From a bacterium (GTDB taxonomy: Bacteria > SZUA-182 > DTGQ01): a stretch of DNA of 64,000 bases. Location of the stretch: positions 237,654 to 301,653 of the forward strand of contig JBFLZW010000022.1 in the NCBI GenBank assembly GCA_040755755.1, read 5' to 3'. This document shows, piece by piece, positions 22,657 to 30,686 of this stretch (its first letter is position 1; every line of letters starts with the position of its first letter). Both the position numbers and the translations under genes were made by a program. The notes under the pieces were generated by a model that was given only the letters and a program-made list of their open reading frames with translations, did not search any database and was not told the origin of the DNA.

Positions 22657-23004
22657 TTGAAATTTAAACTAAACAATAGTAAGTTATACTGTGAAGGGAT
22701 ACGGGTTCCAATAAATGAGGATTACTATAATCCCGATCATTTAAAGAGGTTGTTTACTATCATATTCCATGAGCCTGAAAGACAGGGTATTGATGATTGT
22801 AAGACTATACGGGACGTACGTAAATGCTACTTCGAAATAACATTGAATTTCATGGGATTTCTCCATGACAGGAAAAATAAAGACTGGCTGGCAGCAGAAT
22901 TCTATCGGAGTTTGGCCAATGATTATCTCGTTCATGTTACCCCAAAAACGGAAAAAAGCCCGGGGAAGCATTTATCTTTTCAAAAGATAAAATTGACGAG
23001 ATGA
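22657..23004 (+). CDS. Hypothetical protein, 115 residues
   Basis: No family recognised. The product is lysine-rich and aromatic-rich, predicted soluble and mostly helical, with one cysteine pair (CEG.., DDCKT). It starts at a TTG without a visible ribosome site and sits in an AT-richer stretch than its surroundings. The amino-acid pattern (HLKRLFTIIFHEP, GFLHDRKNKDWLAAEFYRSL) looks protein-like rather than random. It converges with the methyltransferase gene, 41 bases apart, and may be an accessory gene of that locus. Confidence 0.45.
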   Translation: MKFKLNNSKLYCEGIRVPINEDYYNPDHLKRLFTIIFHEPERQGIDDCKTIRDVRKCYFEITLNFMGFLHDRKNKDWLAAEFYRSLANDYLVHVTPKTEKSPGKHLSFQKIKLTR

Positions 23005-23045: not shown

Positions 23046-24689
23046 TCAACGACAGTCACCCTCTGAATCGAAAAGAAGCATTTGTCTCGACTGATTGACA
23101 GACACTTTTGGCATAGCCGCTAAGATGCTATGAGCTGGTACATTTGCCAGTTCTTTCGGTTCGATCTTATGAAGTCCGCCTCCATAAACACGCCCCTTGC
23201 TCATTAATATATCGGGTGAGATTTCGTTGAGGGCCTTCCATACAGCTTTGAATAGTTCCAGGTTGCTCCCAAGCTCTTTTGCGAGCATTGGCTTTGGATA
23301 TAACATGAGATACACATTGAGTACGGTAGCCTTAGAATGATTCAGAATAAAACGGAATGGATTACCGTTTTTTACTGATTGGCGACCCATATAGGTACAG
23401 AGAAAGGGTGCGGGAGGGCGGTTTTCTTGAGAGAACCAGGGATACCTATGCCTGCATAAGTAGCGATTATGAATACCTTTCTCTCTGCCGATTTGCAGGT
23501 ATTCCCATAATGATGGGTAGTTTGCCTTTATATCGCTTTCTGGCCGATTGCAAGCCAATAAGAATAGTTGCTGAGCAGGGACAGGATCCCCATCGTCATC
23601 AGCTTCAATTTCATCCGTTAATAAATATCGGGGACCGGGTAATACCGGTATAAGAAACTCTGATGGTAGTTTATACTTCAAGGTCTGCTCTCGGGTAAGT
23701 ACGAAGAACTTGTTTGCCCCTGTAGCTAAACCGCGTTTAATTGTAAACAAATCCGATAATCTGATCTGAGGAGAAACAGTTTTTACAGGAGAGGTAAAAA
23801 ACGCATTAGTGCAACCAGGTGTTTTGGGGAAGTCAGTCCACTTTTTTGATTGATTAAGTGCTTTCAGTGGAATACGATGAGATATCTCCGGCTTTGCGAG
23901 CGTACCACCATAGCTAAAATCAACCACATGCTCCGCAGGTGCTTTTCCTTTTCTATACCAGATTACGGATGAGGATACATATGCATCTTGAAATTGTACA
24001 TCGTCAGGATTAAAGCAATGAATCTGCAGGAGGGTTACTTGCGATGAGAGATATTGTTTAATCTGGCTCCCATAATTGACATCCATAAACTCGCTTGGGA
24101 TCAACCATCCGGCCAGACCACTATTTGCCAGCCAGTTATGCGAAATTAAAATGAAGTAGCAGTATAGCCCAGCCAAGCCACTCATTTTCAAACCAGTTAT
24201 CTGCTTACTGACCATCTGTAATCGTAATTTTTCATCGATAGGCAAGTGATGATGCCGCACATAGGGAGGATTACAGATAAGCAGGTTGGCTCTCCTATCA
24301 TCCGAATCCGGTGCTTTTACCCTGGTAAAGTCTCCTATGTTGAGCTGTAATGGTGTATCAGCCCAGAGCCTTGCCGCCTCCTGCCCATAGTGGAGGTCAA
24401 TTTCATAACCCCAGGCTTGAGCTATCTGTGATAACGGCCATGAGCGTAATAAAGCAGCATAAAACGAGCCTGTGCCAAAAGCAGGGTCAAGAAAACGGAT
24501 TTGCTGATGTGGGGGCATCATTGTTTTGGCATATTCCAGTATATCTGTTGCCAGTATTGTTGGAGTGGCAAATTGACCTAGTTTGTTCCGTTCAGTCTGT
24601 GTTCTTTTGGAATCCAATTGATATTGAGCTGCAATCCGCTGCTTTTCAATGGGATCGTCTACGAAAGGAATTTCATTGGTTATGGCCAT
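23046..24689 (-). CDS. N6-adenine DNA methyltransferase (Eco57I/gamma type)
   Basis: A 547-residue class I SAM-dependent methyltransferase. SAM-binding motif I is FLDPAFGTGSFY (about 65-76), preceded by GQFATPTILATDILEYA, and catalytic motif IV is NPPYVRHH (about 138-145), the amino-methyltransferase signature for adenine. The C-terminal half (about 300-530) looks like a target-recognition region (IRLSDLFTIKRGLATGANKFF). No endonuclease motif (PD..ExK) was noticed, so it is either a solitary or defence-associated methylase. It is divergent from the large P-loop ATPase gene; the 260-bp gap could carry shared regulation. Confidence 0.88.
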   Translation of the reverse strand: MAITNEIPFVDDPIEKQRIAAQYQLDSKRTQTERNKLGQFATPTILATDILEYAKTMMPPHQQIRFLDPAFGTGSFYAALLRSWPLSQIAQAWGYEIDLHYGQEAARLWADTPLQLNIGDFTRVKAPDSDDRRANLLICNPPYVRHHHLPIDEKLRLQMVSKQITGLKMSGLAGLYCYFILISHNWLANSGLAGWLIPSEFMDVNYGSQIKQYLSSQVTLLQIHCFNPDDVQFQDAYVSSSVIWYRKGKAPAEHVVDFSYGGTLAKPEISHRIPLKALNQSKKWTDFPKTPGCTNAFFTSPVKTVSPQIRLSDLFTIKRGLATGANKFFVLTREQTLKYKLPSEFLIPVLPGPRYLLTDEIEADDDGDPVPAQQLFLLACNRPESDIKANYPSLWEYLQIGREKGIHNRYLCRHRYPWFSQENRPPAPFLCTYMGRQSVKNGNPFRFILNHSKATVLNVYLMLYPKPMLAKELGSNLELFKAVWKALNEISPDILMSKGRVYGGGLHKIEPKELANVPAHSILAAMPKVSVNQSRQMLLFDSEGDCR

Positions 24690-24949
24690 AACTTATATTC
24701 CCATTTCCGCCAGGTCATCGATATAGTATACTACGCTGTGTTAAGTTTATTCAATCTTTTCTTCATGATCAAGATGAGGTACGAAAATCTGAAAGTATGA
24801 GGCTATCTTTCATGTCCACCCTAATCTCTTTGTGCTTTTCCTGCTCTTTTTTTCTTTGTACTTCAGCCATCTTTATGATAAATTTATTAAATTGACCTAA
24901 AAAGCAAAGTTTCACCCTTTTTCGCTCCACAGGAAGGAATAAAAAAGCT

Positions 24950-27900
24950 ATGCCGAAAATCAAGGATCTGATCCGGGTACCTGAAATCAGGACCGTGATC
25001 AGGCTGTCGGATGTTTATGATCAGGATCTTCGAAGGTCCATATTTCAAAATTTTGTCCTGACCAGGGAAGCGGCGGATATTCTCCAGAGCCTCCTGGCCT
25101 CGGTCCGGCAGGGGAGGGGGGAAGGGGCTTTTATTCAGGGCCACTTCGGTTCGGGGAAATCTCACCTGCTCAGCATCCTGAGCCTGCTGTTTCAGGAAAG
25201 CGATGCCTGGCTGCCCATCCTGGAGCAGAAGGCGGCTTTTCAGGAATACGCCGAGGCGCTGAGGAAAGAGCGCTATCTGGTGCTCGATATCTCGCTGGTG
25301 GCCAGCCGCACCACGGAGTCTCTGGAGGAGATCGTGCTCCGCCACCTCGATCGCAGGATTCATGGCCTGTTCGGCGAGAACCTGACCTTTCACGATCCGC
25401 AGAAGTTTGTGGCTGACATGAAGCTTTTGATCTCGCAGCACTACAGCAGCGAGTGGGAGGAATTCAGCCGGAAAAAAGGCGTCTCGCTTACAGACATTTC
25501 TCCTGATCTTCCGGAATCCGTAGCCCTGATTCACCGCTTTCTGGCCAGGATCAATCTGCCCTATCACCTGCGGTTCCACCGCCTCGAGGCTTTCAATCGT
25601 CTGGGGAAGCTTTTTGAGCAGCACCGTATTTGCGGTCTGATCATTCTCCTGGACGAGTTATCCGAATTCCTCAACTCCAAAAAGGAAGAGCCGGGTTTTC
25701 ATGAAGATATCCGCTTCCTGCAATTTCTGGCCGAGGGGCTTCCCGCTGCCGCCGATGTTCCTGCCCTGTACCCGATCTGGGTAGTGGGCACGGTTCAGGA
25801 ATACATCGAAGATACGGCCCAACTGCCCCAGGATCTGTTCAACAAGATCAGGGACCGCTATCCCCTTCGCCTCTCTCTGACCGGCACTCACATCGAGGAG
25901 CTCATCAGCAGCAGGCTGATCCAGAAAAATCCGGGAAGTCAGGAAGTTATCAGCGCTCTCTATCAGGAATACAAGCAGGCCTTCACCACCCTGCCCATTA
26001 GTGCAGAGCGCTTCCTGCGGCTCTATCCGGTGCATCCGGCAACCATCGATCTTCTGGACGATCTCAAGTCCCTGTTCTCCCAGCAGCGCGGAGTGGTGGA
26101 CTTCATCTACCATCAGGTCAGGGGCGGTCCTGCCGCTTCCCAGCCCGGTATTCTGGAGGAGGAGGCGGATTTTCTGCTCACTGCGGACAGGATATTCGAT
26201 CACTTCCTGCCCCGCATCCAGGGACGGGTGGAAACAAACCCCTACGTCAGAACGGTCTTCAAGTACTACACCAACGAGATGGCCAGGATCCTGCCGGATG
26301 AAGAGCAGCAGGCCATTGGTTTTCGCCTCATCAAGATCCTGATCCTTCTGGCCATCTGTCCGGTGAAAAAAAAGTATACTGCATATCAGCTTGCCGAAAC
26401 CCTGCTTCACAAGGTGACCGGCCTTGAGTCTTCCATAAACTATGAATATATCCGGGAGATACTCGATCAGCTCTATCAGAAGGGCGCTTACCTGAAGCTG
26501 GTGGACAAGGGGGCGACACCGGCAGAGGATGTTCTGGCCATAGACCTTGAGGCGGATTTTCAACTGGTGGTAGCCAATAAGATCGAGAGCATGAAGCAGA
26601 GTGTAACCAGGGAGGATGCCCGCATCTTCTACCACCTTGGCCAGTCGGTGGATCTGATCCATCTGCCCCTGAGCCGTTTCATCAGCCAGGAAAGCTGGCC
26701 GCAGACCTTCAAGTGGCAGAACACCGGCCGTGAGGGCCGTATTGCCCTTGCCCGGCTCGATGAATTTCCACGGGAGGAGTTTCAGGATATCCTTCGGGCG
26801 CTTCAGCAGACCGAGCTTGATTTTGCCCTCCTGATCGGTCCGAGCCTTGGTTCGGAAACTCAGCGGGAGGCGGTTTTCGAGCATCTGGCACCGATCATCC
26901 CGCCAGCCCTCAAGCCCGTGGTTTTCTTCTGGCTGCCCGCCGAGGTCGGGGACAGGGAATTCATGCGGCTTGCTCTGTGCCATCAACTGCTGCGGGACAA
27001 ATATTCCTCCGACCACACCGAGCTGGGGAGGCAGATTCATCAATACCTCGAAGGACAGGTCGAGGCCAATCAGAGCAGGATCAAAGAGGAATTCACCCGC
27101 GCCTATTTCAGCGGAACGATTGTCGATGGCTATCTCAAGCCGGTCGTGGACCTTGGCTCCCTTGGCACCCTCGCCTTCACCCGGCTTCTCGACACCCTGA
27201 TCGCCCAGGGCCTGAACAGCCGGTTCCCCCGGCACAAGTCGATCGCTCCGGGTCTTGAGTATGTTCAGCGGGGGATTATTCAAGAGGCCATCGACACCTT
27301 TCTGACCAGGGGGGAGATCATCTTCGGCTATCAGGAGCAGCAGGGAGTCCGTGCCCTGATCGAGGGTTTTCTGCGGCCTATGGACCTTGCGGTACGCACC
27401 ACCAGCGGCTTTCGCCTGCGCCTGGATTCCCGGAAAAACGCTCTCATCGCCCATGTTCTCTCCCTCATCCAGAGCGATCAGGAGCCGTTTGACCGGCTCT
27501 ACTGGCTGCTGCGAAAAGGTGAGTGGGGCCTGACCCGTCTTCAGTTCGAGCTTCTTTCGCTCTCCCTGATCTTCGGAGGGCTTCTGACACCTTACAGTGG
27601 CCAGAAGCGAAAGCCGCTCGATCAGGTTACCATCTACAATCTGGACAAGATTACCGCCGTGGGCAAGGGCGAGTTGATTCAGCCGGAACTGCAGTCCCTG
27701 CTGCCGGAGCTTCCCTTTTTACCCAAAAAGCTCCAGGGAGAATATTCCCTGCCTCTCCAGGAGGAAACCTGGGATTTTTTGCGCAAATTCAAGGAAGAGG
27801 AAGAGGAAAACATCCTGATCGCCTCATCCCGGCTGTCCAGACTGGAGAATGGCCGCGAGTTTTCCGGCCTTGGCCGTGAGGGGCTCGATCGGGCCCGGAA

Positions 27901-28948
27901 GGTTCTTGGCGGTGTAGCCAGGCTGTGGGCAAACCTCGACCCCGGATTTTCCGCCAGGCAGGGGCTTTCGCAGTTCCTCGACCAGTACCGCAAGTCGCCG
28001 GAGCATGGGCAGGACTATAAATTATGGTCCGGTCTGCAAACCATTCTGTTGAAGAAATATGACCGTCTGGTGTTCATCTATCACTATGTCACCCATCCGG
28101 GGCTGGCAGTTCCCGAAGATCAGCCTGATCTTTCCACCCTGCACCGGGAGATCCTGGACCTTCTGGCCAATACCTATCTTTTCTTTTCCGAGAGCTGCTT
28201 TGCGGACCTTGAGGCCGGATTCGACCGCTTCTGCGAAAAGTACCGGCTGGCCTACCAGAAGGGACACCAGGATTTTTCTTTACCCGGCCTGTTTGCGCCC
28301 TACGAGGAGATCAGGTGCTGTCGTCACTATAGCATTCTGAAGCGGCTTTCCCGGATCAGCTTCATCTCGGTCAAAGACGACCCCGGCAGGGTTGACCGGA
28401 TCCTGGCTGCTGTCTTGAGCCGGCGATGCGCACGCGATCCCCACGATCAGCTTGAGACAACTCCTGTCTGCTCCTGCGGCTACAGGCTTGGCCAGCGGCC
28501 TGATTTACCCCCGGTGACCGAGATCGGGTCATTGCTGGAGCAAGGCATCAGCCAGTACCTCGAAGCCTTTCAGGAGGAGGGATACCGGCAGCGGATCATC
28601 CCCTATACCCTGACCCTGGAAGAGATCGGACGGCGGGCCGAAGCGGAACAAATCCGGCAATTACTGGACCTTGGCCGGGAGAATAGCGGACCACGGGGAG
28701 TCGCCGGACTCCTTGACCGCCTGGATGAGCTTCTTTCAGATCAGGTCATCGAAGCCCTGAATGAAGCCTTCCTCGGCAAGGTAAGCGTAGTCCGCCGCAA
28801 CCTTGATCAGTTGTACGAAAACCTGATCGACCGCCAGTTCCCGCTGGAAAAGCTGCAAGACCTTTTCCGGGAGTGGATCATGGGAGGCGAACGGCTGGAG
28901 GGGCAGACATACATCAGGATCACCGGGAGCAGGGGAGGGGATTTATAG
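24950..28948 (+). CDS. Large BrxC/PglY-like P-loop ATPase (DUF6079-type)
   Basis: A 1332-residue protein. The N-terminus (KIKDLIRVPEIR..IRLSDV then QNFVLT) followed by Walker A GHFGSGKSH (about 65-73) and Walker B LIILLDELSEFL (about 228-239) matches the arrangement in BrxC/PglY and DUF6079 proteins, ATPases of BREX-type phage-defence systems. The rest is long and helical, with KSPEHGQDYKLW, a short CSCGY element near residue 1180 and no second enzymatic domain I can name. The start is set by AGGAAGGAA upstream. PglZ, a protein kinase and a Lon-like protease, the usual partners, are absent, so the system is either minimal or broken. Confidence 0.78.
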   Translation: MPKIKDLIRVPEIRTVIRLSDVYDQDLRRSIFQNFVLTREAADILQSLLASVRQGRGEGAFIQGHFGSGKSHLLSILSLLFQESDAWLPILEQKAAFQEYAEALRKERYLVLDISLVASRTTESLEEIVLRHLDRRIHGLFGENLTFHDPQKFVADMKLLISQHYSSEWEEFSRKKGVSLTDISPDLPESVALIHRFLARINLPYHLRFHRLEAFNRLGKLFEQHRICGLIILLDELSEFLNSKKEEPGFHEDIRFLQFLAEGLPAAADVPALYPIWVVGTVQEYIEDTAQLPQDLFNKIRDRYPLRLSLTGTHIEELISSRLIQKNPGSQEVISALYQEYKQAFTTLPISAERFLRLYPVHPATIDLLDDLKSLFSQQRGVVDFIYHQVRGGPAASQPGILEEEADFLLTADRIFDHFLPRIQGRVETNPYVRTVFKYYTNEMARILPDEEQQAIGFRLIKILILLAICPVKKKYTAYQLAETLLHKVTGLESSINYEYIREILDQLYQKGAYLKLVDKGATPAEDVLAIDLEADFQLVVANKIESMKQSVTREDARIFYHLGQSVDLIHLPLSRFISQESWPQTFKWQNTGREGRIALARLDEFPREEFQDILRALQQTELDFALLIGPSLGSETQREAVFEHLAPIIPPALKPVVFFWLPAEVGDREFMRLALCHQLLRDKYSSDHTELGRQIHQYLEGQVEANQSRIKEEFTRAYFSGTIVDGYLKPVVDLGSLGTLAFTRLLDTLIAQGLNSRFPRHKSIAPGLEYVQRGIIQEAIDTFLTRGEIIFGYQEQQGVRALIEGFLRPMDLAVRTTSGFRLRLDSRKNALIAHVLSLIQSDQEPFDRLYWLLRKGEWGLTRLQFELLSLSLIFGGLLTPYSGQKRKPLDQVTIYNLDKITAVGKGELIQPELQSLLPELPFLPKKLQGEYSLPLQEETWDFLRKFKEEEEENILIASSRLSRLENGREFSGLGREGLDRARKVLGGVARLWANLDPGFSARQGLSQFLDQYRKSPEHGQDYKLWSGLQTILLKKYDRLVFIYHYVTHPGLAVPEDQPDLSTLHREILDLLANTYLFFSESCFADLEAGFDRFCEKYRLAYQKGHQDFSLPGLFAPYEEIRCCRHYSILKRLSRISFISVKDDPGRVDRILAAVLSRRCARDPHDQLETTPVCSCGYRLGQRPDLPPVTEIGSLLEQGISQYLEAFQEEGYRQRIIPYTLTLEEIGRRAEAEQIRQLLDLGRENSGPRGVAGLLDRLDELLSDQVIEALNEAFLGKVSVVRRNLDQLYENLIDRQFPLEKLQDLFREWIMGGERLEGQTYIRITGSRGGDL

Positions 28949-28950
28949 CC

Positions 28951-29275
28951 ATGATTAACGAAAAATTACTCCAAGGTGATCAGGCTTTGGCTGAAAATGG
29001 TCAGAAGGCTGGTGGCTGCATTTTCACCGGAGCGGATTTATCTTTTCGGCTCGCGGGCACGCGAAGAACAAAGGACTGACAGTGATTATGATCTCATGAT
29101 GATTATCCCGGCATCCTCTCTGCCCAGGTATCAATGAGAGCAAAAAGCTTTCCGGGCACTGTGCGGCCCTGGTGTTTCCAAGGAAGTGATTGTGCTCACC
29201 CGAAATGAATCTGACTCCAGGCGCTCTGTTGTTTGTTCGCTTCCGGCTACTGTCGAGCGGGAAAGGTACCTATGA
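28951..29275 (+). pseudogene. MNT-type nucleotidyltransferase, disrupted
   Basis: Two bases after the ATPase stop, an ATG with a good ribosome site opens MINEKLLQGDQALAE. An extra base at about 28999 shifts the frame; the next frame reads RRLVAAFSPERIYLFGSRARE, then TDSDYDLMMII, the nucleotide-transferase GSR(A)RE...DSDYDL signature. A stop (TGA at 29135) interrupts it, and the same frame continues with EQKAFRALCG, VSKEVIVLTRNE and SLPATVERERYL to 29275. At least two lesions are visible. Intact relatives are MNT antitoxins or toxins of HEPN/MNT modules. The tight spacing suggests it was once part of the ATPase operon. Confidence 0.75.
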
Positions 29276-29816: not shown

Positions 29817-30686
29817 ATGGAAGAACAACAGGAAAGAGAAATACCGAAGGGAAGATGCTTCTTCTGTAATTCTGCCTTCAGCAAGACAGAGATGACCAGA
29901 CACTTATCCTCGTGCAAGGCAAGGGCAGCTTCCGAAATGGCAGTCCAGAAGAACAAAAAGGCAAGCAAGAACAAAAGCTTTCATCTTCTGGTGGAAGGAC
30001 GCTACCAGCCTGAATACTGGATGCATCTGGAGGTAAAAACCAAGGCTACTCTCGATGATCTGGATGAATTCCTCCGGGATATCTGGCTTGAGTGCTGCGG
30101 GCACATGAGCGCTTTCACCATCGAAGGGCGAACCTTCGTCTCAGGGCCTGACCGGGACAGCGGCGAAGAGGGATTCGATATCGAGCTGGGCAGCATTCTC
30201 AGCCCCAAGATGAAATTTTACCACGAGTATGACTTCGGCACCACCACGGACCTTTCGCTGAGAGTCCTGTCGGAGCGGGAAAGCAGCCCTGGCGACTGGC
30301 CTGTTCGACTGCTGGCGAGGAATGAAGCCCCTCAGATAAACTGTGAGGTATGTGGAAAACCGGCTACCGTGGTGTGCAGTCAGTGTATCGACGAGGGTGA
30401 GGGGTGGCTGTGCAGCGAGTGTGCCGAAGACCATGAATGTGGTGAGGAGATGCTCCTGCCGGTGGTTAATTCGCCGCGAGTCGGAATGTGCGGCTATACC
30501 GGAAACGGAGATGACGAGGAAGATCTGGACTGGGAAGATGAAGATGAAGATGAAGACTTCTTCGATGAGGAAGAGGATTACGGCGAGAACGGCGAGGATG
30601 ACGAGGACATATTCGGCGACGATCTGATATTCGAGGAAGAAGAGGAAGACGAAGAGGATATGTTCGAGGACGATGAAGAAGAGTGA
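29817..30686 (+). CDS. pRiA4b ORF-3-like protein with acidic tail
   Basis: A 289-residue protein. A Cys2-His-Cys-like zinc finger opens it (CFFCNSAFSKTEMTRHLSSC), then a pRiA4b ORF-3/TnpR-like fold (about 55-165: HLLVEGRYQPEYWMHLEV, LDDLDEFLRDIWLECCGHMS, YDFGTTTDLSLRV), then a second cysteine cluster (CEVCGKPATVVCSQC...CSEC, about 175-203) and a 75-residue tail made almost wholly of Asp and Glu. The fold is found on plasmids and mobile elements but its biochemical role is unknown. The two zinc clusters suggest nucleic-acid or protein binding, and the acidic tail a DNA mimic or charge-based interactor. The next gene starts within this tail. Confidence 0.8.
   Translation: MEEQQEREIPKGRCFFCNSAFSKTEMTRHLSSCKARAASEMAVQKNKKASKNKSFHLLVEGRYQPEYWMHLEVKTKATLDDLDEFLRDIWLECCGHMSAFTIEGRTFVSGPDRDSGEEGFDIELGSILSPKMKFYHEYDFGTTTDLSLRVLSERESSPGDWPVRLLARNEAPQINCEVCGKPATVVCSQCIDEGEGWLCSECAEDHECGEEMLLPVVNSPRVGMCGYTGNGDDEEDLDWEDEDEDEDFFDEEEDYGENGEDDEDIFGDDLIFEEEEEDEEDMFEDDEEE

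Follow-up and report, generated by a model that had tools for sequence, protein, structure and literature searches.

A BrxC-like ATPase gene that lacks the PglZ domain of its relatives and adjoins the remnant of a XamI restriction-modification system

Background

The closest described systems to the locus reported here are the BREX systems of types 1-6, in which a BrxC-like AAA+ ATPase is combined with BrxB and with PglZ, a protein with a catalytic threonine and histidines. BrxC, BrxB and PglZ of Acinetobacter BREX form a core complex (PMC13326643), and mutants of the PglZ of Escherichia fergusonii at T538 and H741 have lost or changed nuclease activity, T538 being needed for cleavage (PMC12205998). 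The mechanism by which BREX restricts phage without wholesale DNA degradation has yet to be explained; its presumed core is the BrxC-BrxB-PglZ complex. The BREX-related (BR) systems also have a large ATPase with a helicase, and type 3 BR recruits PglZ (PMC12839542); these systems centre on DUF499, an N6-methyltransferase and a Swi2/Snf2 helicase. Two other points of comparison are SspC of the phosphorothioate Ssp systems and PorX, a response regulator in which a PglZ domain is joined to a CheY-like domain.

The window (the whole stretch of 64,000 nucleotides of bacterial DNA that was analysed) contains a large ATPase gene next to a methyltransferase gene. A previous sequence-only reading proposed that these two genes might constitute a two-component defence system or the residue of a larger one. 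Here the locus is compared with its relatives in other genomes and with the described systems.

Results and discussion

A BrxC-like ATPase at the locus

The methyltransferase and ATPase genes have the positions, gene types and divergent orientation that were attributed to them from the sequence alone, and both reading frames are intact (Table 1). The assignment of the ATPase to the BrxC/PglY-like proteins is borne out as well. The protein matches DUF6079 of Pfam (E = 6e-34), the BrxC model of PADLOC (E = 4e-26) and the BrxC model of NCBIfam (E = 1e-25), the last scoring 90 bits where the cut-off is 400; judged by these profiles, it is a homolog of BrxC that falls outside the curated NCBIfam family. 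For residues 1-1199, AlphaFold2 gave a model with a mean pLDDT of 88 and a pTM of 0.49, so that the placement of domains in it is uncertain. When the PDB was searched with this model, the top five matches were BrxC (E = 3e-13), then ORC subunits, and when it was searched with a profile of the clade to which the ATPase belongs, BrxC chains (3e-19) were the sole matches at E below 1e-3. The window ATPase is thus BrxC-like by sequence and by fold. The N-terminus of the ATPase also has distant similarity to SspC (E = 9e-11), weaker than that to BrxC, and on inspection no SspA, SspB or SspD was seen near the gene.

The motif KI(K/R)DRYP, the Walker A motif and the DELSEFL Walker B motif are all conserved across the alignment of the ATPase clade. 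The KIRDRYP motif of the window protein, which aligns with a KIAGRFK stretch of BrxC, may be an arginine finger, and the conserved cysteine cluster is a possible zinc ribbon.

Table 1. Positions of features of the locus in the window, and loci of relatives that carry a RecQ gene
Feature	Position	Strand	Basis or remark
AT-rich 115-aa ORF that shares the low-GC island of the methyltransferase	22657-23004	+	Pfam, PADLOC and NCBIfam searches negative
Orphan XamI-type N6-adenine methyltransferase (M.XamI-like), 547 aa, intact ORF	23046-24689	-	Pfam, PADLOC, relatives
Remnant of XamI endonuclease (IDDLAEMGI*): the nine final codons with the stop	24693-24722	-	compare RIDDLAEFGL (L114), RIEDLALFGI (L113)
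DNA homology (76%) with G001 of the same genus	24841-28902	+	left edge is the junction with the methyltransferase island
BrxC/DUF6079-type AAA+ ATPase, 1332 aa, without the C-terminal PglZ domain of relatives	24950-28948	+	profile and fold matches
Walker A, GHFGSGKSH, residues 64-72	25139-25165	+	kept in 58 relatives
Walker B, DELSEFL, residues 235-241	25652-25672	+	invariant in 58 relatives
KIRDRYP motif, residues 299-305	25844-25864	+	aligned to KIAGRFK stretch of BrxC
Conserved cysteine cluster, C1160...C1174-S-C1176-G	28427-28480	+	clade alignment
Decayed MNT (minimal nucleotidyltransferase) antitoxin gene, one in-frame stop	28976-29275	+	Polbeta 1e-7
RecQ-bearing loci of relatives	L024-L028, L030, L032, L036, L041, L045, L051, L068		RecQ between TPR and ATPase-PglZ

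As had been noted from the sequence alone, the usual partners of BREX are missing: genes for PglZ, BrxA/B, BrxL or a kinase were not seen in the neighbourhood. There is no methyltransferase of the PglX/BrxX type at the locus either, the adjoining one being of the XamI type.

Relatives with a fused PglZ domain

With the window protein alone as query, a scan of genomes returned no relatives; with an alignment as query, 189 relatives were found in 84,980 species genomes, of which 80 loci were kept. Most of these are from metagenome-assembled genomes (MAGs), belonging to Desulfobacterota, Halanaerobiales, Syntrophomonadaceae, other Firmicutes, Nitrospirota, Marinimicrobia and others. The scorable rows include the window itself and a few loci whose flanks are incomplete, and their genes were called mechanically. 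Among these rows, a PglZ domain is fused to the ATPase or encoded directly after it in 63 of 71, representing many phyla, and a gene for a TPR protein of about 335 aa is located on the same strand just upstream of the ATPase gene in 54 of 70, frequently overlapping its start. Complete relatives are mostly 1550-2000 aa in length, the PglZ region accounting for about 450 aa, and the nearest fused relative is 39% identical across the ATPase part to the window protein, which over its full length is an ATPase of this clade.

The Pfam match of the C-terminal region to PglZ is weak (0.0035-0.025). A model of this part has a pLDDT of 90.5, and its only significant fold matches are PorX, the closest solved fold, and the BREX PglZ of the Acinetobacter BrxC-BrxB-PglZ complex; unlike PorX, the clade joins PglZ to an AAA+ ATPase. 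A set of metal-site residues is conserved in the PglZ of the relatives (D319, T355, D401, H405, D444, H445 and H466 in the numbering of L018), of which the threonine and the last histidine should correspond to T538 and H741 of the E. fergusonii protein.

In 12 loci, all from Desulfobacterota, a RecQ helicase gene intervenes between the TPR and ATPase-PglZ genes; the one locus that was scanned for domains has DEAD, RQC and HRDC domains in its helicase. Neighbours other than TPR and RecQ do not recur widely across the loci of the relatives, no conserved methyltransferase was found among the approximately 80 loci, and no recurrent neighbour is a candidate for a partner like BrxA or BrxB, with the proviso that very divergent BrxB-like iSTAND proteins could escape notice. 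Thus, the clade differs from the BREX core in having ATPase and PglZ in one polypeptide, a TPR partner, sometimes RecQ, and no conserved methyltransferase, and the window copy differs further in having no PglZ, either in the protein or at the locus. The clade differs from the BR systems in its DUF6079-like ATPase, in having RecQ in a subset of loci and in having no methyltransferase. Text searches of the literature, with supplementary data and subscription papers outside their scope, returned nothing relevant to the combination of BrxC-PglZ with TPR and, in some loci, RecQ, and priority is uncertain; the main text of a 2026 survey of BREX (PMC12839542) mentions neither TPR nor RecQ, nor, as far as the searched phrases show, a fusion of BrxC with PglZ.

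In a Poribacteria MAG, the gene immediately preceding that of a PglZ-less ATPase of the clade codes for a P-loop protein of 170 aa (L077:9475-9987). It was considered as a BrxF-like protein and rejected, the match being weak (E = 0.002, under the cut-off) and the gene absent from other loci.

Loss of PglZ and retention of the TPR partner in the genus of the window

The ATPases of the window genome (G000) and of a second species of the same genus (G001) stop at the junction where their relatives run on into PglZ, and searches of both genomes with the clade profile found no ortholog of the clade-type PglZ. The sole PglZ of G000 belongs to a BREX-3 system, encoded on contig C61; another hit on contig C2, together with a related hit on contig C24 of G001, was judged by eye to represent other proteins of the alkaline phosphatase superfamily, and contig C83 of G001 has a weak match to the clade PglZ profile (E = 0.007). 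The contig of G001 stops 192 bp past the ATPase gene, and comparison downstream is limited to those 192 bp. In G002, of the same family, a PglZ remnant is found at the start of a contig, with an out-of-frame ATPase tail before it. In a quick tree, computed with a simple model, both ATPases of the window's genus are nested in a mostly PglZ-bearing clade of 48 rows with 98% SH-aLRT support, so loss of PglZ in this genus is the simplest reading. The PglZ-less forms represent three changes on the tree: one in the genus of the window, one in a group of Poribacteria, KSB1, Caldithrix and G085, and one in L038. A linked loss of PglZ and of adjacency to the TPR gene was also considered. Counted by raw rows it gives a Fisher p of 4e-4; it reduces to two or three independent events, however, and is not significant on the tree.

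The TPR gene is not adjacent to the ATPase gene of the window. The clade TPR profile nevertheless has a single outstanding match in each of three genomes (G000 contig C79, 2e-93; G001 contig C151, 1e-87; G095 contig C173, 2e-70), against a background of other TPR proteins at 2e-31 and weaker, and no comparable match in seven relatives of the same class without a full ATPase, the best of which is partial (G006, 5e-36). Orthology and co-occurrence in the three genomes indicate that the TPR partner has been retained in the window's genus, unlinked from the ATPase. On C79 of G000, an intact MNT-HEPN pair overlaps the end of the TPR gene (L103:9545-10570) and stands in the place usually occupied by the ATPase (TPR gene and pair together, L103:9545-11319); the TPR gene of G001 is syntenic with that of G000, without the MNT-HEPN pair.

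Both the ATPase and the TPR protein are clearly under purifying selection between G000 and G001. The dN/dS of the ATPase gene is 0.14 (NG86) or 0.18 (YN00) and low in all six segments, that of the TPR gene is 0.09 or 0.21, and those of four metabolic genes are 0.06-0.11, all of these values being rough with dS near saturation by NG86. The ATPase reading frame is open over 1332 codons in both species, which share 75% protein identity. As a comparison of two species, these ratios would also be compatible with selection that mainly preceded a recent loss of function.

These observations bear on the possibility that the ATPase is a decaying leftover, the non-functional front of a former ATPase-PglZ fusion with no present role. 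The loss of PglZ, the unlinking of the TPR gene, the decayed toxin-antitoxin genes alongside, and the retention in G002 of no more than a broken remnant would all be expected of such a leftover, but the long reading frame kept open in two species, the low dN/dS of every segment, and the existence of a second PglZ-less clade (Poribacteria, KSB1, Caldithrix), which indicates that a stand-alone form of the ATPase is stable, make it improbable. Thus, the suggestion that the locus is the residue of a larger system stands to the extent that nearly all relatives carry PglZ and the genus of the window has lost it, but not in the sense of simple decay. It had likewise been reasoned that PglZ and other genes in all homologous loci would mark this one as just truncated; the distribution of PglZ largely agrees with that, whereas purifying selection and the TPR gene kept elsewhere in the genome do not.

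The G000 genome also encodes a BREX-3-type system on contig C61 (L013:1130-10572; C61:20085-20606), with a full-length DUF6079 ATPase (1906 bits), BrxF (5e-59), a large methyltransferase and PglZ. The presence of a full DUF6079 BrxC, BrxF and PglZ on one contig raises the idea that the window ATPase serves as a second BrxC, acting in trans with that PglZ. This is very improbable, considering that the C61 system has a BrxC of its own, that identity between the two ATPases is only about 24-29%, over short stretches, and that the clade profile found no convincing PglZ in G001.

The adjoining methyltransferase

The methyltransferase matches Eco57I/N6_Mtase of Pfam and the type II methyltransferase model PDLC03328 of PADLOC (E = 2e-133), and is 53-59% identical, at 92-96% coverage, to its best plasmid relatives, among them XamI-paired methyltransferases and the nearest kin of these. 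In Planktothrix and Chroococcidiopsis, the genes of its relatives come directly after, and overlap, a gene for a XamI-family endonuclease; before the window gene, the endonuclease gene is gone apart from its last nine codons, whose translation resembles the C-termini of those endonucleases; this loss distinguishes the locus from a XamI type II restriction-modification system. The GC content at third codon positions (GC3) is 0.41 in the methyltransferase gene and 0.39 in the 115-aa ORF, versus 0.70 in the ATPase gene and 0.56-0.73 in nine other genes of the window. No homolog of the methyltransferase was found anywhere in G001, which has the ATPase, and among the approximately 80 ATPase loci there is one distant homolog, six predicted genes away from the ATPase (L038). 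The XamI kinship and endonuclease remnant, the GC3, the absence from G001, the edge of DNA homology at the junction and the single recurrence together indicate that the adjacency of methyltransferase and ATPase is due to chance. The methyltransferase (METHYLTRANSFERASE) is an element separate from the ATPase system and a leftover of a XamI restriction-modification system.

A minimal two-component defence system consisting of an N6-adenine methyltransferase and a BrxC-like ATPase was suggested by the adjacent, divergent genes. It is hardly credible in view of the XamI-type enzyme with its endonuclease remnant and differing composition, and of its absence from G001; the search for this gene pair in other genomes, which the sequence-only reading had proposed, shows that it is not conserved, and as a conserved pair it is refuted. 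The explanation that we prefer, and regard as probable, is that the window ATPase is a conserved, PglZ-less member of the BrxC-PglZ/TPR clade, to which the methyltransferase is unrelated.

Possible functions of the clade

The usual form of the clade is a single polypeptide with a BrxC-like ATPase and a C-terminal PglZ domain, a putative nuclease or phosphodiesterase, translated just after the TPR protein. By analogy with the biochemistry of BREX, the ATP-bound AAA+ part may self-assemble on DNA, the TPR protein may interact with it as an adaptor or sensor, and RecQ may be the helicase of the assembly in Desulfobacterota, while the tethered PglZ domain would nick or cut DNA or hydrolyse nucleotide messengers. 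The fused form might then be an ATP-controlled, DNA-bound assembly carrying its own nuclease. In the genus of the window, where PglZ appears to have been lost and the TPR gene unlinked while the ATPase has been conserved, the protein probably keeps the ATP-dependent assembly on DNA with the TPR protein and relies on other effectors. The prospects are evenly balanced for the broader proposal that the clade is a widespread machine, as yet undescribed, that unites the two core proteins of BREX, BrxC and PglZ, in one polypeptide co-translated with TPR (and RecQ in Desulfobacterota), free of a methyltransferase and hence of methylation-based self recognition, and that the window protein is a conserved PglZ-less derivative still functioning with an unlinked TPR protein.

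BREX-like DNA surveillance would be the most likely function, and a role in defence or in surveillance of mobile elements could as easily prove wrong as right. Of 110 genes sampled at distances of up to 2.5 kb from the operons, no more than about 5 have PADLOC matches (1e-10), a count made without a control set of distant genes; having so few such neighbours counts against a typical defence-island gene. The clade might instead be a chromosomal machine of DNA repair or genome maintenance, made up of TPR, RecQ helicase, AAA+ ATPase and PglZ nuclease, and not a defence system. The operon's RecQ with its RQC and HRDC domains, the very few defence genes among the neighbours, and the ATPase tree, which largely follows taxonomy, are consistent with such a role, which is rather unlikely all the same, given that the gene is patchy in occurrence (among 40 genomes of one class, two have it at full length and one in part, and it varies within two genera) and that BREX proteins are the closest homologs. 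Both of these points favour defence, whereas the agreement of the tree with taxonomy speaks against it.

A natural BrxC-PglZ fusion without a methyltransferase would isolate the BREX core in one protein. It would show whether BrxC-PglZ can act on DNA that carries no methyl marks, and whether target recognition is provided by the RecQ or TPR partners. PglZ-less forms such as that of the window would be a natural test of the ATPase acting alone.

Other features of the locus

The gene right after the ATPase is a decayed MNT gene, as the sequence-only reading had it, and its product is 41% identical to an intact MNT elsewhere in G000. No HEPN gene was found after the ATPase at the window locus. 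In G001, a short fragment after the ATPase looks, by eye, like the beginning of a HI0074-like protein, a HEPN substrate-binding protein (L008:13434-13523). The MNT and HEPN remnants after the ATPase in both species, and the intact pair after the TPR gene of G000, prompted the idea of a HEPN-MNT module tied to the ATPase; this was rejected, as such modules are common here (another is at L103:2799-3438) and MNT is found near only three or four relatives, and the HEPN-MNT remnants by the ATPase are taken as chance insertions. Further downstream in the window (29817-30686), a pRiA4b ORF-3-like protein is encoded whose C-terminal tail is long and acidic.
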